Source of the DNA: a virus
DNA: 64,000 bases
IMG/VR virus record: IMGVR_UViG_3300006224_000007
Span: 1-64,000 of that record
Direction: 5' to 3' (one strand)
Below, in pieces: positions 4,847 to 53,891 of this stretch (positions within the stretch are counted from its first letter, which is position 1; each line of letters starts with the position of its first letter). The notes under the pieces are model-generated. The model did no database searches and was not told where the DNA came from. It worked only from the letters and a program-made list of their open reading frames with translations. Position numbers and translations under genes: made by a program.

Positions 4847-5251
4847 ATGGGGAAAGTAAGGGAAGAGGAATTTATCCCTTTCAATATTGGTCCAATTGAT
4901 AAAGTGCCGAAATCTAAGCAGGGTTTCAATGACAAAAAGGTGGAAGATTGGAACTGGCTGGACTTCTGGAATTATTTCGAATCTAAACACAAAGAAGTTC
5001 TTGGCAAAGAACACTGGTATAATTTCCAGCAGAGAAACGCTAAAAAAGGAATTATCGAACAGTCTTATGGCTATTGGGGAAAAGACGTTTTCAAGGCCAT
5101 GATAGACTGGCTGTATGAGAACTATCGACAGTATCCTCAGTGGAACGACATTCATATTGGCCTTGTTTGTGGAGCGCACGGATGGGCTAAGTTAATTGGT
5201 CAGCAAGCCAAGAAACAAATCGAGCTTGACAATCATTGGAAAGGCGAGTAA
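4847..5251 (+). CDS. Hypothetical aromatic-rich protein
   Basis: A 134-residue protein, ATG preceded by CAGGAGA. Rich in Trp, Tyr and Lys (DWNWLDFWNYF; EHWYNFQQRNAKKG), as in some DNA-replication accessory proteins, but no family can be named. It precedes a small Cys-rich protein and a possible loader-like gene on the way to the helicase. Confidence 0.7.
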   Translation: MGKVREEEFIPFNIGPIDKVPKSKQGFNDKKVEDWNWLDFWNYFESKHKEVLGKEHWYNFQQRNAKKGIIEQSYGYWGKDVFKAMIDWLYENYRQYPQWNDIHIGLVCGAHGWAKLIGQQAKKQIELDNHWKGE

Positions 5252-10390: not shown

Positions 10391-10398
10391 TTGTAATT

Positions 10399-10485
10399 GG
10401 GCGAGTGGCGGAACTGGCAGACGCGCTAGACTTAAAATCTAGTCTTTGGGAAACCGGGGTGCGGGTTCAATTCCCGCCTTGCCCA
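10399..10485 (+). tRNA. tRNA-Leu (anticodon UAA)
   Basis: A full cloverleaf: acceptor GGGCGAG/CTTGCCC (one G-T pair), anticodon loop CTTAAAA on a CTAGA/TCTAG stem, long class II variable arm and T arm GCGGG-TTCAATT-CCCGC. Discriminator A; CCA is not encoded. UUA is a frequent codon in this A+T-rich phage, so it probably boosts translation. Confidence 0.95.
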
Positions 10486-10505
10486 TTAAACAAACGGAGG
10501 ATATA

Positions 10506-13097: not shown

Positions 13098-13619
13098 ATG
13101 TTAATGTTATATGGAATGCTGGGAGTCTTCTTTCTATGGTTGGTCATTATTATCTATTTGTGGAGAAATGATGACCTTTATGGATTTGAAGATGTTATAG
13201 CAACATTTGTACTCATTGTATTTATTGCCAGTGGAATTTTTTGGGGTGGGTTAACTTTTGGTCTTAGTTGGCTTGGTAATTATCATGAGAAGGTTGGAGA
13301 ATATCAATTAGTAGCTTTGAAAGATACTGGAAGGGTTGAAGGCTCCTTCTTCTTAGGAACTGGATATTTTCAAGGTTCCGCTGCTTATAGGTATTACTAT
13401 CAACTTGATGAAAACTTTATTGCTATGAATCAAAGAAATTTTAGTGATGGTTTTATAACCTATATTACTGATGGTAGTTATCCTAGAGTTGTTACGACCA
13501 AAGAACATTTTAAGAGCGGATTCTTGAATCACTTATTTTGGGACGTAAAAGGTTATGAAGATACTTATTATGTTCCTGAAGGTTCTGTTCTTAATGAAAT
13601 TAGATTGGACTTAGAGTGA
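13098..13619 (+). CDS. Membrane protein with extracytoplasmic domain
   Basis: 173 residues. Two N-terminal helices (about 5-24 and 32-57), then a soluble domain with EYQLVALKDTG, AYRYYYQL and a V-x-x-E end. Many phages carry such a small membrane protein with unknown function. Confidence 0.65.
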   Translation: MLMLYGMLGVFFLWLVIIIYLWRNDDLYGFEDVIATFVLIVFIASGIFWGGLTFGLSWLGNYHEKVGEYQLVALKDTGRVEGSFFLGTGYFQGSAAYRYYYQLDENFIAMNQRNFSDGFITYITDGSYPRVVTTKEHFKSGFLNHLFWDVKGYEDTYYVPEGSVLNEIRLDLE

Positions 13620-14269
13620 ACCAATATCATAAGATAAACTCAATCTTTAAGAGAACTACAGATGGAAAGAAAATGCTTTTTGGGGAATACTCCCAGCCTG
13701 AGTTTGAATATCTTAAAGATAATTTGTGGGAGTTTACTGAGAAAGTAGATGGAACTAACATAAGAGTCATGTATGTTGGTTGTGAAGCCTTTGGCGATGA
13801 TATGTGGTTTGGTGGTAAAACTGACAACGCTCAAATTCCTGCCCATTTAGTAAACAAATTGAATGAACTTTTTTGGATTGATAAGCTAAGGGATGCTTTC
13901 CCTAGTGATAATCAAGAGGACGCTATCAGAACTATTTGTCTTTATGGTGAAGGCTTTGGAGCCAAGATTCAGAATGGTGGAAAATATATCCCCGATGGGG
14001 TTGACTTTGTGCTGTTTGATGTTAAAATAGGGGAGTGGTGGCTCAAGAGAGAAGCTGTTGAAGATATAGCTACCCGACTTGGTATTATGGTCGTACCAAT
14101 AATAGACCAAGGAACCTTAGAAGGAATGATTAACCTTTGTAGGCATGGATTTAAGTCTCAATGGGGAGATTTTATAGCTGAAGGTATAGTAGCAAGACCA
14201 GTAGTAGAGCTTAGAGATAGGAGCGGCCATAGGATTATTACTAAGCTGAAGCATAAAGATTTTCAGTAG
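13616..14269 (+). CDS. RNA ligase (Rnl2-like nucleotidyltransferase)
   Basis: 217 residues, GTG start overlapping the previous stop. Ligase motifs are in order: motif I EKVDGTNIRV with the lysine that takes AMP (near residue 42), motif IIIa FVLFDVKIG, motif IV EGIVARP and motif V ITKLKHKDF. It lacks extra domains and matches compact phage RNA ligases that seal nicked RNA. Together with the repair pair at 22332-24156 it suggests broad RNA-repair capacity. Confidence 0.85.
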   Translation: MNQYHKINSIFKRTTDGKKMLFGEYSQPEFEYLKDNLWEFTEKVDGTNIRVMYVGCEAFGDDMWFGGKTDNAQIPAHLVNKLNELFWIDKLRDAFPSDNQEDAIRTICLYGEGFGAKIQNGGKYIPDGVDFVLFDVKIGEWWLKREAVEDIATRLGIMVVPIIDQGTLEGMINLCRHGFKSQWGDFIAEGIVARPVVELRDRSGHRIITKLKHKDFQ

Positions 14270-22992: not shown

Positions 22993-24156
22993 ATGAAAGT
23001 AATAGCAACTGAGAAATTACCTATCAAGTTATGGTTGGAAGACATAGAGGATGGTGCTTTGGAACAGGCCAAACATCTTGCTAATCTTCCTTTCATACAT
23101 AAGCATGTAGCAATCATGCCTGATTCTCATGAAGGATATGGAATGCCTATTGGTGGAGTATTAGCTACCAAAGGTGTAGTAATTCCTAATGCGGTTGGTG
23201 TAGATATTGGTTGTGGAATGTGTGCTGTAAAAACTGACCAATACCAACACTGGATTCAACCCGAACAGTACAAACAAATAATGGGTAGAATTCGGGAAGA
23301 GATTCCTGTAGGATTTTCTCACCAGGAAACTGCTCAACAAATTCGTGATTTGCCTGATGGTGTAGAAGAAGACTATGTTATTGCAAGACAATATCTTGCA
23401 GCCCAAAAACAAATTGGAACTCTTGGTGGTGGAAACCATTTTATTGAGATTCAGTATGATGAAAAAGGCATGGTCTGGATAATGGTTCATTCTGGTTCTA
23501 GAAATCTTGGCAAGCAAGTTGCTGATGTGTATAATAAATGGGCGGTTCATTTGAATGAGCGTTGGCATTCTCAGGTTCCTAAAGAATGGCAGCTTGCTTT
23601 TCTTCCTATTGAAGAAGAAGTAGCCAAGAGATACATCATTGAAATGCAATACTGTGTAGATTTTGCCTTAGATAATAGATTAAATATGATGAACAAAATC
23701 CAGGATATCTTTGCAGAAGTTCTTGGTGTAGTTGGCTATGGTGATATAATTAACATAGCTCATAACTATGCTGTTTGGGAAAACCATTTTGGACAGAATG
23801 TTATTGTTCATAGAAAAGGTGCTACTCGCGCTAGAACAGGAGAGATAGGAATAATTCCTGGTAGCATGGGTACTTCGTCTTATATTGTGGAAGGATTAGG
23901 AAATGCTGAATCGTTTACGTCTTGCTCTCATGGTGCGGGTAGGAGAATGGGTAGAAAAGAAGCTACAAAAAGACTGGACCTTAGTACAGAAATCGGAAAC
24001 ATGGACGCAAAAGGAATCATACATGGTCTTAGAAATCAATCAGACTTGGATGAAGCGCCAGGAGCTTACAAAGATATAGATGAAGTGATGGAAAATCAAA
24101 AAGACCTTGTTAAGATTCTTGTTAAATTACAACCATTGGCGGTAATAAAGGGATGA
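22993..24156 (+). CDS. rtcB: RtcB RNA ligase
   Basis: 387 residues. Conserved RtcB landmarks: MPDSHEGYGMPIG, VGVDIGCGMCAV (Mn-binding Asp/Cys), GGGNHFIE, MVHSGSRNLGK and SCSHGAGR near the end, whose His takes the GMP. RtcB joins 2',3'-cyclic phosphate or 3'-phosphate RNA ends to 5'-OH ends. No archease is seen. It lies after the nucleotidyltransferase, pointing to an RNA-repair pair. Confidence 0.95.
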   Translation: MKVIATEKLPIKLWLEDIEDGALEQAKHLANLPFIHKHVAIMPDSHEGYGMPIGGVLATKGVVIPNAVGVDIGCGMCAVKTDQYQHWIQPEQYKQIMGRIREEIPVGFSHQETAQQIRDLPDGVEEDYVIARQYLAAQKQIGTLGGGNHFIEIQYDEKGMVWIMVHSGSRNLGKQVADVYNKWAVHLNERWHSQVPKEWQLAFLPIEEEVAKRYIIEMQYCVDFALDNRLNMMNKIQDIFAEVLGVVGYGDIINIAHNYAVWENHFGQNVIVHRKGATRARTGEIGIIPGSMGTSSYIVEGLGNAESFTSCSHGAGRRMGRKEATKRLDLSTEIGNMDAKGIIHGLRNQSDLDEAPGAYKDIDEVMENQKDLVKILVKLQPLAVIKG

Positions 24157-27908: not shown

Positions 27909-27947
27909 GGGGGAAGCTGATAGCTTGGCTTCCCCCACCTTTTTTTC
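27909..27947 (+). terminator. Strong intrinsic terminator
   Basis: GGGGGAAGC (27909-27917) pairs with GCTTCCCCC (27928-27936), followed by TTTTTTT. It separates the SSB from the DNA polymerase. Confidence 0.9.
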
Positions 27948-27963: not shown

Positions 27964-29862
27964 ATGATTATTTTAACTGAAGAAGCATTAGATAATGTAT
28001 TAGAAACTCTATCAACTTCTGAGTTGATAGCCTTTGACTTTGAGACAATGCCATCAGGCTTATATCCTGACGTTGATAAAAAAGAAGCTTCTATTCATCA
28101 CAAAATGCTAGAGATTGAAGGTCTTGCTCTAAGAAGTGAAAAACTTGAGCCTGTGTACATTCCATTTACCGATACAGAGGTATCGAGAATATATCTAGTA
28201 GAGCAATTAAAGAAGCTTTTTAGTCAGGATTCTCTGTTCATAGCACATAACATACAGTTTGATGCTAAAGTAGCAGATTACTTTCTTGGAGCAAGACCTA
28301 AAAATAAATTCTGTACGCTTGTTGGCTACTGGTATCTTGATGAAAACGTTCCAAAGGATGCCAAAACTCTTGCCAAAAAACATTTTGGCATGGATATGAT
28401 TTCTTATGATGAGGCTAAAAAACTTTCAAAAGAAGAATTCTATGAATATGCCAAAAGAGATGCTCAAGCTACTTACTTGTTGTATTTCTTTCTAAAAGAA
28501 AATCTTGAAAAGAAACATTGGCATTTAGCATCTACAATAGAGATGCAATTTATTGACGTTCTTATAGATATGACTTTACATGGAACGCCTTGTGACCTTG
28601 ATTACCTTAAAAAAGGTGAAGAGCTTCTTACCAACAAGGCAATAGAACTAGAAGCTAAAATCCATAGAGAGCTTGGAGAGTTTAACATTGGTTCTACTCA
28701 ACAACTTTGTGAAAAAATCTACGGAATAAAAATTAAAAGAACTAAGGCTGAAGGTTTAACTCTAACTAAAGTAGACGATTATAGTTCCAAAAAGTATGCC
28801 AAGGTTATAGATACAACTGAAACTGGTGCGCCTAGCACAGATGAAAAAGCTTTATCTAAATTAAATACTCCTGCTGCTAATCTCATAAAAGAATATCGTG
28901 GGATAATGAAGCTTCTTTCTACCTATGCCATAGGATATCAGAAGTATGTTATTGACAATAGAATTTATCCTACGTTCAATAACTCAGGCAAGGAATCATT
29001 CCAATATGGTACAGTAACAGGAAGATTAAGTTCTGCTGCTCCCAACATGCAAAATATTTCTCATGAAGCTACAGAAGGATGGTGGCTAAGAGAAGCTATT
29101 TATGCTCCTGAAGGATATGATTTAATTGTAGCTGATGAATCCCAGCTAGAAGTACGATTGCTTGCTCATTTTAGTAAGGATGAATATTTAACTCAGGCTA
29201 TTAGGTCTGGAGAAGATGTTCACTTAGCGACAGCAAAGCTTATTTTCAACAAAGATGATATTGATAAGGAAGAAAGACGCTTTGCCAAGACCATGAATTT
29301 CTCCATAAGTTATGGTCAAGGAATAAATGCTATTGCTGAAGCCTTGAAAGTTACTCCAGCAGAGGCAAAACAGTTTAAATATGACTATTTTGATACGTTT
29401 CCTGGTGTAGATGATTGGGTTACAAGGGTTGGGAATAGGGTTGTAAATCCAGAAAATGCTGACCATCATGTTATAACTATAATTGGAAGAAAAAGAAGAT
29501 TTCCAGAGATACCAGCATTACAGATTTTGCCAACTGATTCAGAAGAAGTATACAAATATAAAAGAGGGCAACTAGCTAGAGTTAAACGTCAAGCTGTTAA
29601 CTCTATTATCCAAGGCTCTGCTTCTGACGTTTTAAAAATGGCTATGGTATGGATAAGCCAGGAGTTTAAAAACAAACAATTAGACGCACATATAATTCTT
29701 CAAGTTCATGATGAACTTGTGATAGAATCTAGAAAAGACTATACAGAACAAGCTATGGAGATAGTCAAGAATCATATGGAAAGACCGTTTGAAGACGAGC
29801 TAGATGTTCCCCTAGAAGTTAAGCCGATGAAAGTTAAAAAATGGAGTGAGGGAAAGGATTGA
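27964..29862 (+). CDS. Family A DNA polymerase with 3'-5' exonuclease
   Basis: 632 residues. Exonuclease motifs: FDFE (Asp25-x-Glu27), AHNIQFD and YAKRDAQATY. Polymerase motif A is ADESQLEVRLLAH (DYSQIE in most relatives), motif B RRFAKTMNFSISYGQG (Ser for the usual Gly after NF), motif C LQVHDELVIE. No 5' nuclease domain. Main phage replicase, in the same block as SSB, RecA and resolvases. Confidence 0.95.
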   Translation: MIILTEEALDNVLETLSTSELIAFDFETMPSGLYPDVDKKEASIHHKMLEIEGLALRSEKLEPVYIPFTDTEVSRIYLVEQLKKLFSQDSLFIAHNIQFDAKVADYFLGARPKNKFCTLVGYWYLDENVPKDAKTLAKKHFGMDMISYDEAKKLSKEEFYEYAKRDAQATYLLYFFLKENLEKKHWHLASTIEMQFIDVLIDMTLHGTPCDLDYLKKGEELLTNKAIELEAKIHRELGEFNIGSTQQLCEKIYGIKIKRTKAEGLTLTKVDDYSSKKYAKVIDTTETGAPSTDEKALSKLNTPAANLIKEYRGIMKLLSTYAIGYQKYVIDNRIYPTFNNSGKESFQYGTVTGRLSSAAPNMQNISHEATEGWWLREAIYAPEGYDLIVADESQLEVRLLAHFSKDEYLTQAIRSGEDVHLATAKLIFNKDDIDKEERRFAKTMNFSISYGQGINAIAEALKVTPAEAKQFKYDYFDTFPGVDDWVTRVGNRVVNPENADHHVITIIGRKRRFPEIPALQILPTDSEEVYKYKRGQLARVKRQAVNSIIQGSASDVLKMAMVWISQEFKNKQLDAHIILQVHDELVIESRKDYTEQAMEIVKNHMERPFEDELDVPLEVKPMKVKKWSEGKD

Positions 29863-30035
29863 TAGGTCTAGTTGAAAAAATTAAATCCAACTTTGATGTG
29901 CGGAAACCGGCCTTGCAACCTCCCGCTACAGTACCGCTAGGACGCGCTACAGCACCGCTACAGCGCGTCGGTTTCGCGCCGGTAGTATCGGACCTATGCC
30001 ACCGCGCCGCCGATTCTAGCGTGTCTGCGCTCTAA
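29859..30035 (+). CDS. Possible small G+C-rich protein overlapping both neighbours
   Basis: A 58-codon frame from TTG 29859 (GGAAAGGA upstream) to a TAA that overlaps the next ATG. It is Pro/Ala/Arg-rich (KPALQPPATVPLGRATAPLQR) with a codon mix unlike the rest of the genome. Start and stop overlaps fit real coupling, but the composition argues that it is a recent insert or an RNA/DNA element read by chance. Confidence 0.4.
   Translation: MIGLVEKIKSNFDVRKPALQPPATVPLGRATAPLQRVGFAPVVSDLCHRAADSSVSAL
29900..30032. other. G+C-rich iteron-like island (possible origin)
   Basis: About 130 bases of strongly G+C-rich DNA in an A+T-rich genome. It holds three direct repeats of CGCTACAG (29924-29931, 29945-29952, 29956-29963) and an 8-bp inverted repeat GACGCGCT/AGCGCGTC (29941-29948, 29962-29969). 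The position just behind the DNA polymerase fits an origin or regulatory site. A horizontally acquired small element is the alternative. Confidence 0.6.
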
Positions 30036-30607
30036 TGCTAAAAGAAAAGGAGAAACAAATAAATAATGCATTGAAAATTTGGTTCTGTGGTTCACATGGT
30101 ACAGGAAAGACTACTCAAATGGAGTACTTTTTGAGTATTCATCCTAACTTTAATCGCTTGGAAATGGAAAGGCGAAGCCTCTTAGAAGCTGGAATTATAA
30201 AAGTAAATAAGGATGCTGCTCCTTGGGATGAAATAGTAATAGCTGGAAATGCTATGTTAGCTATGTTATCTACTTCTACACCATTTATTTCTGATAGAAG
30301 CTGGGTAGATAAATGTGCTTATTCTCAATGCCTACCATTTAAAAATGAACTTCTTGATGCATATCATACTGTTAACACTAATGCTTTCTTTGGTTTTACC
30401 GAAAACGATAAATATTTTTACTTTCCTCCTATATTACCACTAGAAGATGATGGCGTTCGTTCTCTTGACCCTCAATATCAAAAAGATATAGACTCTATGA
30501 TTATATTTTATCTAGATTACTTTAAAATACCATATCATATAATGGAAACAACAACTGTGCAAGATAGACATTTTGAAATAGAAAAGGTTCTAGGAACACT
30601 TAAATGA
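30035..30607 (+). CDS. P-loop kinase/NTPase (AAA_28-like)
   Basis: 190 residues. Walker A GSHGTGKTTQ near residues 19-28 and a basic Arg patch (MERRSL) suggest a nucleotide or nucleoside kinase-type P-loop enzyme. FISDRSWVDKCAYS is the Asp-Arg segment of such kinases. It might phosphorylate nucleotides or RNA ends; not resolvable here. Overlaps the previous frame by one base. Confidence 0.75.
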   Translation: MLKEKEKQINNALKIWFCGSHGTGKTTQMEYFLSIHPNFNRLEMERRSLLEAGIIKVNKDAAPWDEIVIAGNAMLAMLSTSTPFISDRSWVDKCAYSQCLPFKNELLDAYHTVNTNAFFGFTENDKYFYFPPILPLEDDGVRSLDPQYQKDIDSMIIFYLDYFKIPYHIMETTTVQDRHFEIEKVLGTLK

Positions 30608-31954: not shown

Positions 31955-32200
31955 ATGTCTGTACAGGAAAAATTAAAAAGCGCAGAAGAAAGTAAATATG
32001 TAAGAGCATTTAGGTTTGGTACTTTGCTTGATTATATGTTCCTTATCTTCATGACCTTAAAACTAGTTGGAGTTATTGATTGGAGTTGGTGGTGGGTTAC
32101 TGCTCCATTATGGATGCCAATAGCTTTATTAGCTGCTATCTTTTCCCTTGCTGGTATTCTTTATTTGATAGCAAAGGGATTAGAGAAAAAAGTTGTCTAG
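31955..32200 (+). CDS. Small membrane protein
   Basis: 81 residues with a strong AAGGAG site. Two helices (about 28-42 and 48-73) around a Trp-rich turn (DWSWWWV). Unknown. Confidence 0.65.
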   Translation: MSVQEKLKSAEESKYVRAFRFGTLLDYMFLIFMTLKLVGVIDWSWWWVTAPLWMPIALLAAIFSLAGILYLIAKGLEKKVV

Positions 32201-32561
32201 TCGTAAATCAAGAAAGTTAGAAGAGAAAACTGCCAAAGATTTTATTGGAGGAAAAGTGCAAATCGCATCGGGCGCACTTCCATTTTGGAAACAAGATGTT
32301 TCTGCCGATAATTTTCTTATAGAACATAAATATACTGAGCCTTATACCAAAGGTTATGTTCTTAAAAAATCCTACTTTAAAAGCGTCATTGACGAAGCCT
32401 TTAAGCTAGGTAAATTACCTATGATGGTAATAGAGTTTACAGGTAAACCTGAGCTAAGAGTAGCTGTAATAAGATATGAAGATGCCTTGGCTCTTGACAG
32501 ACTTCTAAAGCTAGAAGAAGAATATTATCATGATGGAATAGAAAAAGATTTAAATACATAA
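32193..32561 (+). CDS. Holliday-junction-resolvase-like PD-(D/E)XK nuclease 1
   Basis: 122 residues, TTG start. A short basic N-terminus, then ASGALPFWKQDVSADNFLIEHKYTE: the Asp and Glu-x-Lys of a restriction-endonuclease fold, followed by GKLPMMVIEF. Fits a compact phage junction or branch nuclease. Follows recA. Confidence 0.7.
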   Translation: MSSRKSRKLEEKTAKDFIGGKVQIASGALPFWKQDVSADNFLIEHKYTEPYTKGYVLKKSYFKSVIDEAFKLGKLPMMVIEFTGKPELRVAVIRYEDALALDRLLKLEEEYYHDGIEKDLNT

Positions 32562-32569
32562 GGAGACAA

Positions 32570-33523
32570 ATGGCGCAAAATTTAAAGGAGCTTGTAAAGA
32601 AGAATAAAAAGTATGTTCGTGAAGACATAAATCTTAATGAACTCATAGATAAATTTTTACTTTCAGAGCAGAATAGAAAGTCAGAATATTTTATTCCTGC
32701 ATTTCATCCCTCTCTTATCTCTAAGGGAGTAGAGTGTCAAATCTGGTGGTACTATTTCCTTAAAAATCAAGAGTCTCTTCCTGAAGAATGGTCTGATGAA
32801 AATCTCACAGCTATGGCAGTTGGGAAAGCTATTCATAATGAAACTCAGCACATTCTTTATAGGATGGGAATTCTTGAGGGAGTATATAAATGTATCTCCT
32901 GTGGTCATAAATTTTGGGCAACTTCACCCAAAGACCAATGCCCTAATTGTAGCCAGTTTTTCAAGAATTGGAGCTATCTAGAATTTAAAGAAGTTCCTAT
33001 TCATACAGGATTGATAAGAGGTCATGCTGATGGTTTTATTAATCAACAAGGAACCAGATTTTTGCTTGAGTTGAAATCTATAAAGAATGTTGATAGACCT
33101 AATGCTAATTATGGGTTTGAAAAACTTATCAATAGACCATTAGATGACCATTTCATACAGACTCAGCTTTATTTGTATGGTTGGTATGAACTAGCTAAAA
33201 AAGCTCCCCTTGAAGAAGAATTTATTTTAGATGAAAATAATAGAATTTCTACAGAAAAACTTGATGGGCCAGTTTATGAAGGTGCTAAGATAATTGGTGT
33301 TATAAATCAAGGTCTTGTAGAATATATAGCAAAAAATTCTTCTGAGAAAAAATCATTTCTTATCAAACGTAGTACAGCCGCCATACAATTCCTTCTTGAT
33401 GAAATGCAGTTAATATGGAAAGCTTATTTAGAAGACTCTCTTGACGATTTAAAAGGAATAGTGTATACTGATAAAGGCAAATGTAAAAAATGCCAATATA
33501 GGAGTGTATGTAGTTGGACATAA
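32570..33523 (+). CDS. Cas4/RecB-like PD-(D/E)XK exonuclease
   Basis: 317 residues, ATG after AAGGAGACAA. GHADGFI, LLELKSI and QTQLYLYGW form the nuclease core. An internal zinc ribbon (CISCGHKF...CPNC) is inserted, and the C-terminus has CKKCQYRSVC, which with an N-terminal Cys could bind an Fe-S cluster as in Cas4. Likely DNA end processing with RecA. Confidence 0.85.
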   Translation: MAQNLKELVKKNKKYVREDINLNELIDKFLLSEQNRKSEYFIPAFHPSLISKGVECQIWWYYFLKNQESLPEEWSDENLTAMAVGKAIHNETQHILYRMGILEGVYKCISCGHKFWATSPKDQCPNCSQFFKNWSYLEFKEVPIHTGLIRGHADGFINQQGTRFLLELKSIKNVDRPNANYGFEKLINRPLDDHFIQTQLYLYGWYELAKKAPLEEEFILDENNRISTEKLDGPVYEGAKIIGVINQGLVEYIAKNSSEKKSFLIKRSTAAIQFLLDEMQLIWKAYLEDSLDDLKGIVYTDKGKCKKCQYRSVCSWT

Positions 33524-33846
33524 AGTTTTATGGTGAGCTATCAGACCCATCTGAGTTTTCTAAGGAACTGTTAGAAGAGTTTCTTAATACTGGCTATGCT
33601 ATAGAACAGAAGATAAATGGAATAACCTATATACGAATGACTGACCTTTATTATGAGGATTTAGGAGAGTATATAATTAAGCATCCTAGAGAGCTTTGTA
33701 GAGACTACTGGAATAGATTAGTTGAAGGTATAATATATCATGACCCAGTATACTTTGTTAAGAAACTATGTGAAACTCATACTACTATTAAAAAACTTAC
33801 ACACAATAAAGTAGATTTTTGTGAGATGATAGGAGAGGAATTATGA
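33514..33846 (+). CDS. Hypothetical protein
   Basis: 110 residues, TTG start overlapping the nuclease gene by 10 bases. Aromatic and acidic; no family recognised. Confidence 0.6.
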   Translation: MDIKFYGELSDPSEFSKELLEEFLNTGYAIEQKINGITYIRMTDLYYEDLGEYIIKHPRELCRDYWNRLVEGIIYHDPVYFVKKLCETHTTIKKLTHNKVDFCEMIGEEL

Positions 33847-34325
33847 TGGAGTTTAGGGCTGATGCTGAAATACTAACTGAAAGTGTTAGAGACGAACTAA
33901 GAAAAAAGGGTTTTGTATATCCAACAGAGGAAGTTGTAGGAGCTATTTCTGAAGAAGATAAAACTTTCCCTACAGAAGTATCTGATTTACCTCAAGAAAT
34001 TTTGCTAGATAAATTAGCTACTTTTACTACTCTTTATGCTGCCGCTGCTATGGGTGAAGCTAAATACGCAGTTGAAGTAAATATTCTTGAAAGAGACTTA
34101 GAATTCAGTAAGGCGGCAGCTTCTCATTCCAGTACAGCAACCAAAGTTACTGATAAACGGCAAGAGGTTGCAATTAATGAAAAAGTTGTACGGCTACAGG
34201 AAAAAATAAGTATTGCCGAAACTTATCTAAAGACCTATACAGTACTAAGAACTAACTATGAGAAATTCTGTTTCATGCTAAGTCGAGCTTTAACAGTTCG
34301 TGGAGAGGAATCTAGATTGCAATAA
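33843..34325 (+). CDS. Hypothetical helical protein
   Basis: 160 residues, with a long probable coiled coil from about residue 80 (LERDLEFSKAAASHSSTATKV...LQEKISIAETYL). Unknown; sits between nuclease genes. Confidence 0.65.
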   Translation: MMEFRADAEILTESVRDELRKKGFVYPTEEVVGAISEEDKTFPTEVSDLPQEILLDKLATFTTLYAAAAMGEAKYAVEVNILERDLEFSKAAASHSSTATKVTDKRQEVAINEKVVRLQEKISIAETYLKTYTVLRTNYEKFCFMLSRALTVRGEESRLQ

Positions 34326-34681
34326 TGGCAAAAGTGTCTCAACAATGGAAAGCATTAGAAAAAACTGCGGCACGAAAACTAGGTGGCGAACGTCTAGTAA
34401 GGGGTGACGATTTTTCTCAGTCAATTCTTGATGTTGAGCATGACTTTCTGGCGATAGATTGCAAGTGGCGCACTACTCTAGCAGTATGGACTTGGTTTCA
34501 AAAGCTAGTTAATGATAATGCAAAAATATACGGAAAAGGAAAGAAGGTGCCAATATTAGTTATAAAGAAAAAGGGAATGAGAAGCGAGCTTGTTGTCATA
34601 GAAATTGACGACTTTATTAAAGTAGTAAATGGCGAATATTATATCGAACCAAAGGAGATAGAAAATGGCGAAGAAAACTGA
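34325..34681 (+). CDS. Holliday-junction-resolvase-like nuclease 2
   Basis: 118 residues. EKTAARKLGGERLVRGDDFSQSILDVEHDFLAIDCKW has the Asp and (D/E)-x-Lys pair of resolvase-type nucleases; VPILVIKKKG is the next strand. A second enzyme of the kind at 32193, so the phage has two. Confidence 0.75.
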   Translation: MAKVSQQWKALEKTAARKLGGERLVRGDDFSQSILDVEHDFLAIDCKWRTTLAVWTWFQKLVNDNAKIYGKGKKVPILVIKKKGMRSELVVIEIDDFIKVVNGEYYIEPKEIENGEEN

Positions 34682-34979
34682 AGATACACTAGAAACTCTT
34701 AAAGTTGCTGGTTCTACTAATCCCTCTAGTCTAGCTGGAGCAATTGTTAAGATTGTTAATAAAAATGCAGATTGTGAGCTTATTACTATTGGTGCTGGTC
34801 CTTGTAATCAGGCTATGAAAGCCGTCGCTATTGCGAATAGATTGCTTGGTTCTAGTGGTATGTCTCTTTCTGTAAAGCCCTGCTTCTATACTCTTGACCT
34901 TTCTAATGAAAGACAGGAAGGAAAAGAAGGTAAATCAGAAGTTACGGCTCTTAAATTCAAAATTATAGTTGAGAGGTAA
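34665..34979 (+). CDS. spoVS: SpoVS-family protein
   Basis: 104 residues matching stage V sporulation protein S: LKVAGSTNPSSLAGAIVK, IGAGPCNQAMKAVAIANRLL and SGMSLSVKPCF, then TALKFKIIVER. SpoVS (Alba-like fold in known structures) affects sporulation in Bacillus, acting as a regulator. A phage copy may steer host development or bind nucleic acid. It suggests a spore-forming or related Gram-positive host. Confidence 0.9.
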   Translation: MAKKTEDTLETLKVAGSTNPSSLAGAIVKIVNKNADCELITIGAGPCNQAMKAVAIANRLLGSSGMSLSVKPCFYTLDLSNERQEGKEGKSEVTALKFKIIVER

Positions 34980-34982
34980 AAA

Positions 34983-35279
34983 ATGGGAACTAAAATTTCA
35001 GTATCAGTAGATACTAAACTAGAAAAATATCCCAAAGCTACAGCTACTTTTGATGGCACAAACACGCCTAGATTTTGGCATGACCCAGTTCTTAGAAAAA
35101 GTTTGGCTGATGCTATAAATTTAGCTGGTGATAATAAGGATATTTTTGACTATTGTAACTTCCTATTTTCCCATGTAAACAACGCTATTAGACGGCGTTA
35201 TGGAGGACAAGAATTACAGCTTGAATCTGTTACTGTTATTGGTCAGTTTGGTGATAATTCTATTACGTCCTATCAATAA
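34983..35279 (+). CDS. Hypothetical protein
   Basis: 98 residues following SpoVS by 3 bases. Contains an RRRYGG loop. No family recognised. Confidence 0.6.
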   Translation: MGTKISVSVDTKLEKYPKATATFDGTNTPRFWHDPVLRKSLADAINLAGDNKDIFDYCNFLFSHVNNAIRRRYGGQELQLESVTVIGQFGDNSITSYQ

Positions 35280-35489
35280 ATGGGAGTAAAAGTTAAAATA
35301 CTAGAGCGGGATTTTGCTACCGGCACTCCTAATATATACTACAAGATTTTTCCTGAAGCCGATAAATTTGATATACTTATGAATGCAGAGCATGAACAGA
35401 CACACTTGAAAATAATGAGTGCTGATGCTATAATAGCATTCTTCCCCTCTGGTGGTTGGTTAAGTGCGGAAATAATAAAGGAGAAATAA
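35280..35489 (+). CDS. Hypothetical protein
   Basis: 69 residues, directly joined to the previous gene, beta-rich. Unknown. Confidence 0.6.
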   Translation: MGVKVKILERDFATGTPNIYYKIFPEADKFDILMNAEHEQTHLKIMSADAIIAFFPSGGWLSAEIIKEK

Positions 35490-35923
35490 TGCCTAAGTTA
35501 ACTAATGAAGACCTTTTGAAAAATTTAGATTTTACTTGCGCCCGTTGTCAAGCAGAGTGTACTAAGATAAATGCGGCTGAACCTGAACATGGATATATTT
35601 CTAAGGTAGATGGTTCCTTTGTTGGTCCTATTTGTAGTAACTGTTTAAATCAAATCCCTGAGCCAGAAAGACAGACTAGAAATCCATTTCCTGAAACAGC
35701 TTTTCTTATTGTAATAAGACCCAATGGTGAGGGTGCTTTTATGACAACAGAAGGTGTTGGTTTAACCTATTTAAGAGAGCCTACTTTTCTTGATGTTATG
35801 CAAGGTTGCGAAAGAGTAAAGAAAGATGTAGAGGAATCTATTTTTGCTCAGAAGTTAACCAATCAAATCATGCATGTAGTGGCTGCAAGCCAGAAAGCAC
35901 CCAAAATAATGGTTCCAAGATAA
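35489..35923 (+). CDS. Zinc-ribbon protein
   Basis: 144 residues from ATG 35489 (AAAGGAGAAATA). CARCQAEC and CSNCL pairs; the rest is a mixed domain ending in a helix. Unknown. Confidence 0.65.
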   Translation: MPKLTNEDLLKNLDFTCARCQAECTKINAAEPEHGYISKVDGSFVGPICSNCLNQIPEPERQTRNPFPETAFLIVIRPNGEGAFMTTEGVGLTYLREPTFLDVMQGCERVKKDVEESIFAQKLTNQIMHVVAASQKAPKIMVPR

Positions 35924-35933
35924 GGAGGTTTGT

Positions 35934-36236
35934 TTGAACATACCAAAACAGGTTAAAGCCTTTGGTAGAGTATATAAAATTATTAGAGACACTGATACAA
36001 CAAATAAAATGGAGTGTTGGGGATATCTTGATGCTATGACAGATACCATTGTGCTTAGAAAAAGAAGCTGCGAGTTTACTCCTGGGCATGAAAAACAAGT
36101 TTTTTTTCATGAGTTAATGCATGTTGTTGATAGTAATTTTCATATAGGACTGACGGAAGAACAGATACAAACTATGAGTGTTGGAATAACAACAATTATA
36201 GAAGATAATAAGCTGGATTTTACAAATGGAACCTAA
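35934..36236 (+). CDS. Zinc metalloprotease-like protein (HExxH)
   Basis: 100 residues, TTG start after AGGAGG. VFFHELMHVVD is an HExxH helix, followed by LTEEQIQTMSVGI, as in small phage proteins distantly like ImmA/IrrE or SprT. No N-terminal HTH. Target unknown. Confidence 0.75.
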   Translation: MNIPKQVKAFGRVYKIIRDTDTTNKMECWGYLDAMTDTIVLRKRSCEFTPGHEKQVFFHELMHVVDSNFHIGLTEEQIQTMSVGITTIIEDNKLDFTNGT

Positions 36237-51176: not shown

Positions 51177-51388
51177 TGGAATGTCCAAGATGCCATAAGA
51201 CACACTTTAATACTTTTATAATTAGCCGATATAAAGAGAAGATGCCTGTTAATAAATGTTGTATTTGTGGGTATCTTTGGATAGATGACAAAGATTTAAT
51301 TACACTAACAAAGGCTGAGTCGAAGAAAATGTTCATAGAAACTTTGAGGAATATGGGGAAATATGACCAACGAAAAGACAGTAGTTAA
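51176..51388 (+). CDS. Small zinc-ribbon protein before terminase
   Basis: 70 residues, GTG start. CPRCHK and CCICGY knuckles. Overlaps the terminase gene by 26 bases. Unknown. Confidence 0.6.
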   Translation: MECPRCHKTHFNTFIISRYKEKMPVNKCCICGYLWIDDKDLITLTKAESKKMFIETLRNMGKYDQRKDSS

Positions 51389-53891
51389 ACTATCTCCTGC
51401 ACTTGAAGAGAAGATAGTTGATAAAATTGTAGACCTTGCTCAATATATGGGAGAGATGAAATTCTACCCATATCAACTTCCTTTTGCTCGGAGACTAACT
51501 CAGAGCATTATCACTAATGAGGGTGCTACCCTCTCCGCTCTTTTTTCCCGTCAGTGTATTCTTCAAAAATCATTTATCATGGACCGTGATGGTAAGGTCA
51601 TGTTCATTGAAAAACACCCTGATGCCTGGGAAACACAAAGTCAAGCTAATATTTTAGAGATTAAAACTCTTGGTGGTCATGTAATTAAATGCACAGAAGA
51701 ACACCCTATTGCTACAGACCAAGGTTGGATGCCAGCCCAATGTGTAGAAAAGGGTACAAAAGTAGTAGTCCTAGACCAATGGAATAAGTTTGGAGATGGA
51801 ATAATTCCATACAAGGACAAAACTTTTGTTATGAGTAATGATTTGGCTGAGTTAGTTGGATGGCTTACTGCAAATATCAGAGATTCAGAAGAAGTTAAAA
51901 TCACCATAGGCCATAAAAGAGTCTTAGAACTGATTACAAAATATTTTCTTGATTCAGATTTTACTGCTAGAAAGACTAGTTTGACCATTCGATTGAATGG
52001 TCACTTAAAAAATTTCTTAAAATTTGTAATTAAATACAATAGTTATGGTATGCCTGAAGGCATTAACTATTTTACTAGAGAACAGTTGATTAGATTCTTT
52101 TACCCACTATTTCTTACTAATGGAAAAACCTATAAGAAACCTAGCACTATGAAGATAATGCTAAAAGACTTAAACTATTTTGCTCTATTGTTTTACAAGG
52201 AGCATCTTAATAAGCTAGGTTTACATGGAAACTACGAGATGTGGATTGGTCATAACTTAATTTTTCAATGTGCTACTAACTACTTACGTTTTAAAGAATT
52301 GTTTGAAGAATATCTTCCCAAAGAGTATTTTCCTTCTTTCTATCAGTATAGAAAAAGAGCCAGCAAAACTTTTGAAGGAGAAGATGGAGAAATTCTTACC
52401 TATGCTAGAGTACATTCAATAAAATGGGAAGCTGTGCATGTTCCTGTATGGGATATTAATGTTCCTGATAAGGGATGGTTTTTAGTTTCAGGTGCAAAAG
52501 TGCATAACTCAGGAAAAACTCAAGTTGTAGCTATGATTACGGCTGCTTGCATGGTAGTTTTGCCTACGTTAGCAGAAAAATTTCCTGAGAATTTTGGCTT
52601 GTTTATTAAGGGATTTTGGGCTGGATGCTTTGGTCCTGTAGGAGAACAAGCTATTACAATGTTTGATAGAATCTACTCAGTTTTTGTTTCAGATAATAGT
52701 AAAAGATTATTCATTGAAGAGTTAAAGATGCCAATACCAGCGCAGGGTGGAGCGCGTGGAAACCTAATCAAGCTTAAAAATAAGTCCTTTGTACGTTATC
52801 AATCTGGTAGTCGTAGAGCAAAAGTTGAGTCTAAAACATACCATCTTATCATTCTTGATGAATGTCAAGATATGGAATCCTTCAAGATTAAGAAGTCTAT
52901 TCTTCCTATGGGTGCTGCTGTTAATGCTACAGTTGTAACTACAGGTACACCTGATGTTTACATTGGTTATTTTTATGATACAATAGAACAGAATAAAGCC
53001 GAAGATATTAAAAATCCAGGTCCAAAGCAAATGCACTTTGAAATTGATTATCAAGTTGCTCAAAAATATAATCCTATGTATAAGAAGTATATTCAAAAAG
53101 AGATAAAACGTCTTGGTTTTGAATCTGATGAATTCAAGATGGCCTATAGACTTATTTGGCCTATAACAAAAGGGATGGTATTTACTAAATCTCAACTAGA
53201 TGAAAAGTGTTATAATAAGGCATTGAAGTTTGTACAGGAATGGCATGAAACACCTTGTATAGCTGGGCTTGACTTAGGAAAGGCTCAAAACTCTACAGTC
53301 GTGTTTGTTCTTAGACCTTTTTGGGAAGATGCTGACGAAGAAGGAAATGTTCCTAAACAAATTTTAAACTGGATGGAACTTGAAGGAGATGAATGGGAAG
53401 AACAATATCCAAAAGTGGTAGACTTTCTAAGCAACTATTGGATTGATTCCCTAGTCTGTGATTCAACAGGAGTAGGTAATCCTATAACAGAACGTTATGC
53501 TAAACTACTTCCTAATACAAACGTAGTTCCATTTGTATTTAGTCCTACCTCTAAAGATATTGGGTATAAATACTTTCTTCAAGAAGTTAATCAAAAGAGA
53601 TTAATTATTCCCGCCCATACGAGCGTTCGTAATACTAATCGGTTCAAAAAATTTGAGCATCAGATGACTACTTTGAAGAAACATTATAGTGGTAAGTTTT
53701 TAAGTCCATGCCCTATAGATGCCGATAAAGGTCATGATGACTATTGTGATTCCTTGATGCTTGCTATATTCGGTACATTTTATGAAGTTATGCCTGAAAT
53801 AGAAGAAACATACAATGATTTCTTCCTAGCATCAAGAGATAATATAGAACAAACCTTTGGAAGAAACTATTCTAGACCGAGAAAAACATAA
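51363..53891 (+). CDS. terL: Terminase large subunit (precursor split by intein)
   Basis: 842 residues. The precursor is interrupted at residue 64/65 by a 318-residue intein. Once it is removed, RQ joins SGKTQ to make the Walker A of a T4-type packaging ATPase, with Walker B LIILDECQDM. The C-terminal nuclease has Asp at AGLDLGKAQNS, DSTGVGNP and GHDDYCDSLM. Mature length is about 524. Pumps DNA into the head and cuts concatemers. Followed by portal and head genes. Confidence 0.93.
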   Translation: MTNEKTVVKLSPALEEKIVDKIVDLAQYMGEMKFYPYQLPFARRLTQSIITNEGATLSALFSRQCILQKSFIMDRDGKVMFIEKHPDAWETQSQANILEIKTLGGHVIKCTEEHPIATDQGWMPAQCVEKGTKVVVLDQWNKFGDGIIPYKDKTFVMSNDLAELVGWLTANIRDSEEVKITIGHKRVLELITKYFLDSDFTARKTSLTIRLNGHLKNFLKFVIKYNSYGMPEGINYFTREQLIRFFYPLFLTNGKTYKKPSTMKIMLKDLNYFALLFYKEHLNKLGLHGNYEMWIGHNLIFQCATNYLRFKELFEEYLPKEYFPSFYQYRKRASKTFEGEDGEILTYARVHSIKWEAVHVPVWDINVPDKGWFLVSGAKVHNSGKTQVVAMITAACMVVLPTLAEKFPENFGLFIKGFWAGCFGPVGEQAITMFDRIYSVFVSDNSKRLFIEELKMPIPAQGGARGNLIKLKNKSFVRYQSGSRRAKVESKTYHLIILDECQDMESFKIKKSILPMGAAVNATVVTTGTPDVYIGYFYDTIEQNKAEDIKNPGPKQMHFEIDYQVAQKYNPMYKKYIQKEIKRLGFESDEFKMAYRLIWPITKGMVFTKSQLDEKCYNKALKFVQEWHETPCIAGLDLGKAQNSTVVFVLRPFWEDADEEGNVPKQILNWMELEGDEWEEQYPKVVDFLSNYWIDSLVCDSTGVGNPITERYAKLLPNTNVVPFVFSPTSKDIGYKYFLQEVNQKRLIIPAHTSVRNTNRFKKFEHQMTTLKKHYSGKFLSPCPIDADKGHDDYCDSLMLAIFGTFYEVMPEIEETYNDFFLASRDNIEQTFGRNYSRPRKT
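51555..52508 (+). other. Intein in terminase Walker A, with degenerate LAGLIDADG-type insert
   Basis: 318 residues, from Cys65 to Asn382 of the precursor. N-terminal block A is CILQKS, block B GHVIKCTEEHPI (T-x-x-H). C-terminal blocks have VWDINVPDKGWFLVSG and end VHN; the next residue is Ser, so Cys1, His-Asn and Ser+1 are all present. A middle region (LAELVGWLTAN) looks like a degenerate homing endonuclease. The intein appears splicing-competent. Confidence 0.9.

Follow-up and report, generated by a model that had tools for sequence, protein, structure and literature searches.

RESULTS

A G+C-rich island behind the DNA polymerase gene

We analysed a window of 64,000 nucleotides (64 kb) from a virus record of 77,150 bases, in which the + strand holds 51 of the 53 open frames of at least 130 amino acids, the remaining two overlapping + strand frames. 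A short G+C-rich island lies between the gene for a family-A DNA polymerase and the gene for a thymidylate-kinase-like AAA_28 protein, and the gene cluster around it encodes SSB, a RecA-like recombinase, a resolvase and an exonuclease. The features of the locus are given below together with their counterparts in a relative, L008 (record G001, 62,755 bases), whose polymerase is 57% identical to that of the window phage.

27909-27936, + strand: strong terminator-like hairpin between SSB and polymerase, 12 pairs followed by a T run
27964-29862, + strand: family-A DNA polymerase carrying a 3'-5' exonuclease domain (Pfam, PHROGs)
29859-30035, + strand: open frame of 58 amino acids with a TTG start, judged not to be a gene
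29863-29902, + strand: A+T-rich spacer from the polymerase stop to the island, 13/40 G or C; absent from L008
29903-30035, + strand: G+C-rich intergenic island, 63% G+C; homologous to L008 6873-7000 (62.5% G+C)
29924-29931, + strand: CGCTACAG, copy 1; not in the L008 island
29936-29991, + strand: conserved core, 56 bp ungapped, 82% identical to L008 6898-6953
29941-29948, + strand: left arm of an inverted repeat; present in L008, from which the right arm (29962-29969) is absent
29942-29949, + strand: ACGCGCTA, same in both phages; an 8-bp pairing with 30017-30024, including one G-U, is possible
29945-29952, + strand: CGCTACAG, copy 2; L008 has CGCTATAA here
29956-29963, + strand: CGCTACAG, copy 3; not in the L008 island
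29969-29991, + strand: nearly invariant block CGGTTTCGCGCYGGTAGTATCGG, 22/23 identical, with the sole difference at 29980
30017-30024, + strand: TAGCGTGT, same in both phages; its frame relative to the small open frame differs
30035-30607, + strand: AAA_28/thymidylate-kinase-like protein (Pfam, PHROGs); true start probably downstream of the island
30046-30052, + strand: ribosome-binding-like site AAAGGAG before the kinase (by eye); L008 has AAAGGA just before the ATG

The G+C-rich part proper begins near 29903, and from there to 30035 84 of 133 bases are G or C (63%). The 100-bp G+C peak at 29907-30006 reaches 0.66, which is ∼6.5 sd above the window mean (0.359, sd 0.046) and is the highest 100-bp value of the whole 77,150-bp record (36% G+C overall), where the second listed peak is 0.55, at tRNA-Leu. 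These values bear out the first-pass annotation, which had described a strongly G+C-rich island in an A+T-rich genome. A single tRNA-Leu is present in the window (10398-10486).

L008 also has a terminator-like hairpin between SSB and polymerase (4946-4977, 14 pairs followed by a T run). Between 27000 and 32000 a promoter scan gave 15 sites (15.4 expected) and 5 terminator-like sites were found (2.7 expected), with no terminator-like site in the island; one promoter-like site (30041-30013, minus strand, 9/12) lies at the island end. Because the AAAGGAG at 30046-30052 corresponds to the AAAGGA before the L008 ATG, the overlap TAATG at 30035 is probably fortuitous. By eye, the window position matching the L008 kinase ATG (30035-30076) shows no standard start codon, and the kinase start is uncertain.

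The island is shared with a diverged phage

We compared the island with two other contigs. The contig of a near-identical strain, L007/G003, differs from the window by 5 mismatches and 1 gap opening over 22,222 aligned bp and has the island unchanged. L008 is far more diverged (∼65-73% identity in the aligned DNA pieces around the site), and in the same polymerase-kinase slot it has an island in which 80 of 128 bases are G or C and whose peak, 0.66, is the highest of record G001. The two islands were paired by blastn (E 5e-11) via the 56-bp core. An assembly artefact is unlikely, as the island recurs in near-identical L007/G003 and, diverged, in L008/G001. A recent insertion, one of the possibilities raised at first pass, is not supported, because the diverged L008 has a homologous G+C-rich island at the same junction, as has L007. 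On this comparison we regard the island as old and maintained in the phage lineage.

The two islands differ in 45 columns, and at these 27 and 28 of the bases, respectively, are G or C, whereas in the genome-wide blastn pieces G or C makes up 36% and 47% of the mismatch positions. Thus G+C content persists at the diverged positions, and the core retains its bases. Third positions of the core are identical in 15/19, 18/19 and 13/18 cases in the three forward frames, compared with 42% in four neighbouring genes, a contrast that is flattering and an upper bound because the core is by choice the best-matching local stretch. In the aligned pieces, 6.1% of windows have 46 or more of 56 columns identical, so this level of identity is not rare, and all conservation tests rest on two independent island sequences, those of the window phage and L008.

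Searches for further copies

In viral_contigs the core pattern matched only the two known contigs, and a repeat-based pattern matched five contigs; just one of these, the near-identical strain, contains the island. No third independent copy was found in viral_contigs with the core or with polymerase, kinase, exonuclease and portal queries. The polymerase query gave one more close member of the clade, L009, whose contig ends within the polymerase gene. The portal query gave five new clade contigs (L091, L092, L094, L095 and L096), none of which (0/5 each) matched the polymerase, the kinase or the island; the two long contigs among them apparently represent different parts of the genome. Elsewhere in the genome, the terminase large subunit of both phages (51363-53891 in the window, 129-2699 in L090) is interrupted in the N-terminal half by what looks, by eye, like a long intein, and the best terminase match begins at residue 381.

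In a G+C scan of 44 loci (L029-L072), mostly distant polymerase relatives, only L056, which is the near-identical strain, stood out (5.8 sd), and the other loci reached at most 3.7 sd. A DNA search of isolate phages and plasmids gave only short matches (E 0.6 and above). The best isolate matches by portal were Streptomyces phages of the BRock/LuckySocke group, which have a similar gene order; in the two that were compared, LuckySocke and BRock, the polymerase gene is followed after 11 and 23 bp, respectively, by the next gene, with no such spacer, and a third, unannotated record was left aside. A search of the window for antisense targets of the 22-base block gave nothing apart from the block itself.

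In genome_contigs the core pattern gave 4 hits, compared with ∼7 expected at equal base frequencies (hand calculation), and these were taken as chance. One of the hits, in a contig from a Bradyrhizobium MAG (L078, 564-587), agrees exactly with the L008 core over 24 bases; it sits in an apparently coding stretch (by eye) and is probably due to chance.

Repeats, GC skew and a possible DNA-level site

The three repeats and the perfect 8-bp inverted repeat noted at first pass are real. Exact copies of CGCTACAG start at 29924, 29945 and 29956 and occur nowhere else in the record, and the inverted repeat consists of GACGCGCT (29941-29948) and AGCGCGTC (29962-29969). Their interpretation as iterons is not supported by the comparison: the L008 island contains 0 copies of CGCTACAG, compared with 3 in the window, and lacks the right arm of the inverted repeat. 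Being absent from the L008 island, the three CGCTACAG copies and the perfect inverted repeat cannot be the shared function.

We also examined GC skew. At four-fold sites, in 4-kb bins, the window phage gave -0.16, -0.34 (island bin) and -0.32, and the relative gave +0.35, -0.07 (island bin) and +0.15. The bin of the relative that dips to -0.07 (G001 32001-36000) also contains the SSB and polymerase genes. Across the window, overall GC skew is positive almost everywhere and makes no turn at the island. Skew mapping, which had been suggested as a check, thus revealed no lasting change at the island, and the dip in the relative can be read either way. For the origin proposed earlier this means that no lasting four-fold skew switch was seen in either phage, which is weak counter-evidence since origins need not leave a skew.

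The broader idea, that the island is a DNA-level site (a replication origin, a primosome site or a recombination site) bound by phage proteins, is the strongest of the alternatives, though we consider it rather unlikely. The island sits among genes for SSB, polymerase, RecA-like recombinase, Holliday-junction resolvase and exonuclease, and it is conserved at the nucleotide level without a conserved RNA fold, as would suit such a site. However, no lasting four-fold skew change surrounds the island (the dip in the relative being ambiguous), the overall profile of the window makes no turn, the repeats are not conserved, and the island is G+C-rich rather than A+T-rich, with the adjoining A+T-rich spacer missing in L008. 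Of the 30 window frames run against PHROGs, which are part of the genes, none was identified as an integrase, and an attachment site is therefore not favoured.

No conserved nested RNA fold was detected

In A+T-rich genomes, G+C-rich islands classically mark structured RNAs. With folding energies per 130 nt of -45.7 and -49.0 kcal/mol, the two islands are stable against their genome backgrounds (means -24.1 and -26.3, sd ∼5.8), though both genomes contain a few other 130-nt windows that are as stable or more so. Relative to dinucleotide shuffles, the single-sequence folds gave z -0.88 for the window island and +0.80 for the L008 island. RNAalifold on one fixed alignment showed no excess on the + strand (z -0.04; -0.51 on the - strand), and neither did resampled alignments of the + strand, where z was +0.22 and 34 of 60 column-shuffled controls were as good. 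The positive control, tRNA-Leu of the same two phages, gave z -5.67 with 0/60 controls as good. The minus strand of the island gave a mild value in the resampled alignments (z -0.92, 10/60 controls as good). Stacks shared on the + strand contained 0 double-sided changes, compared with an average of 2.5 in column shuffles, and those on the minus strand contained 3 (2.5 in shuffles). The column-shuffle test is blind to pseudoknots. Thus, with two sequences, no conserved nested RNA fold of the island was detected while the tRNA control passed.

A structured RNA (a riboregulator or ribozyme) with a pseudoknot, or with a fold so diverged that two sequences would not reveal it, is in our view unlikely. 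The composition of the island, the stability of each copy, the possible 8-bp helix shared by ACGCGCTA and TAGCGTGT and the mild minus-strand value are consistent with it. Set against these are the missing fold signal where the tRNA passes, a shared stack of equal length in 30 of 300 column shuffles, and the lack of an Rfam match at gathering score, as Rfam 15 gave only three weak, unrelated matches near the island, far below that score. The regulatory RNA considered at first pass is still a candidate, although a conserved nested fold was sought and not seen. Rfam found no match in the L008 flanks, and a tRNA search found none at the island.

At gathering score, Rfam reported a single tRNA in the window, and for the relative's record together with the tail of the window record it listed six tRNAs and one tmRNA; tmRNA was not matched in the window phage. 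The tmRNA-like gene (L080 4265-4342, record G001) is 78 nt long and comprises only the tRNA-like domain: it scores 65.7 bits (gathering 47), with 308 model positions set against 12 nt in the alignment, and has a G3-U70 pair (by eye), the end ACUA and a fold z of -2.3. A similar CDS-less tmRNA form has been described for phage DS6A and inhibits endogenous tmRNA in E. coli (PMC11915505), and the L080 gene may be a further phage case of this form. The window phage also encodes an RNA ligase (13616-14269) and an RtcB-type tRNA-splicing ligase (22993-24156).

The small open frame is probably not a gene

As described at first pass, the small frame at 29859-30035 overlaps both neighbours, sharing 4 bases with the polymerase frame and 1 with the kinase frame. 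A gene for a small protein (50-60 residues) that overlaps both would have some points to recommend it: a frame is open across the island in the same register in both phages (58 amino acids in the window; open from 6782 to 7000 in L008), 13 of 18 core residues are identical (counted by eye), and a GAGG lies 7 bases upstream of the TTG, though within the last polymerase codons. However, the core substitutions between the two phages fall 1/5/4 on codon positions 1/2/3 of the 58-aa frame, while in polymerase, kinase, recA and exonuclease pooled they fall 28/20/52%, and the conserved TAGCGTGT stands in different frames in the two phages. Neither a third-position excess nor a conserved frame, the signature of protein coding, was thus found. 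Searches against Pfam and PHROGs (window frame) and against NCBIfam (frames of both phages) returned no family match at the thresholds applied, and an open frame is cheap here, because G+C-rich DNA is poor in stop codons. The island is probably not a gene, and we give the small protein quite a low probability.

That the island is a functionless relic of an old insertion (a mobile element or host fragment) is very improbable: its composition looks foreign, it was not seen in the more distant LuckySocke and BRock, and among the 44 mostly distant polymerase-relative loci only the near-identical strain exceeds 3.7 sd, but a relic would be expected to drift and turn A+T-rich, and the core is kept at 82% compared with 42% third-position identity in the four neighbouring genes (an upper-bound contrast).

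DISCUSSION

In two diverged phages the same slot is occupied by a stretch of similarly high G+C whose 56-bp core is conserved at the nucleotide level. Neither a coding signature nor a conserved nested fold was detected in it. The island apparently holds a conserved, non-coding element. Of the initial reading, the idea of a functional site stands, while the recent insertion and the iterons are not supported.

The explanation that we put first, tentatively and with somewhat less than even confidence, is that of an old and maintained intercistronic element, non-coding and acting in cis in the polymerase-kinase mRNA. It would be transcribed within this mRNA, where a protein or an antisense partner would recognise the linear core, and the G+C-rich sequence around the core would provide a locally stable structure that is not precisely conserved. 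The effect could be on mRNA stability, on read-through or on the relative expression of polymerase and kinase. In both phages the island lies directly before the ribosome-binding-like site of the kinase and downstream of the terminator that precedes the polymerase gene, which argues for this reading, as do the homologous slot, the G+C kept at mismatches, the conserved third positions and a fold that is stable compared with the genome. Against it, dinucleotide shuffles fold about as well, RNAalifold shows no + strand excess, double-sided changes number 0, equally stable windows exist elsewhere and an identity of 46/56 is not rare. An action in the mRNA is slightly favoured over one as a DNA site.

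A slimmer chance goes to a lineage-specific cis-element in which the 23-base block would work as linear sequence inside a compositionally protected G+C-rich shell. It might, for example, be a replication protein's binding site, which would function in the polymerase mRNA as well and so couple replication to polymerase/kinase expression, or it might be an unstructured guide RNA directed against a host target.

The proposed intercistronic element can be set beside three known systems. Intergenic stabilising or attenuating mRNA elements (REP-like and others) sit between the genes of operons. The phage island is likewise intercistronic, G+C-rich and stably folding and precedes a ribosome-binding-like site; unlike them, it is a single copy, was found in just one lineage and has a linear conserved core. 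In hyperthermophilic archaea, G+C-rich islands mark non-coding RNAs in A+T-rich genomes. Here, too, we have a short intergenic G+C peak in an A+T-rich genome that is conserved in a relative, but no conserved secondary structure was detected in it and it has no Rfam match. Iteron-type and other phage replication origins can lie inside replication genes; the island resembles them in being part of a replication module and in having short repeats in one phage, and differs from them in that the repeats and the A+T-rich neighbour are not conserved and a clear skew signal is lacking.

To our knowledge, phage non-coding elements are little charted beyond a few model systems. The locus illustrates that striking repeats and open frames in such an island may be incidental, with conservation falling instead on a block that is much less noticeable. 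The island is a compact target for deletion, and its presence in the same slot of two A+T-rich phages that differ at more than half of the third codon positions (in the four neighbouring genes) points to a functional non-coding element in the replication cluster.
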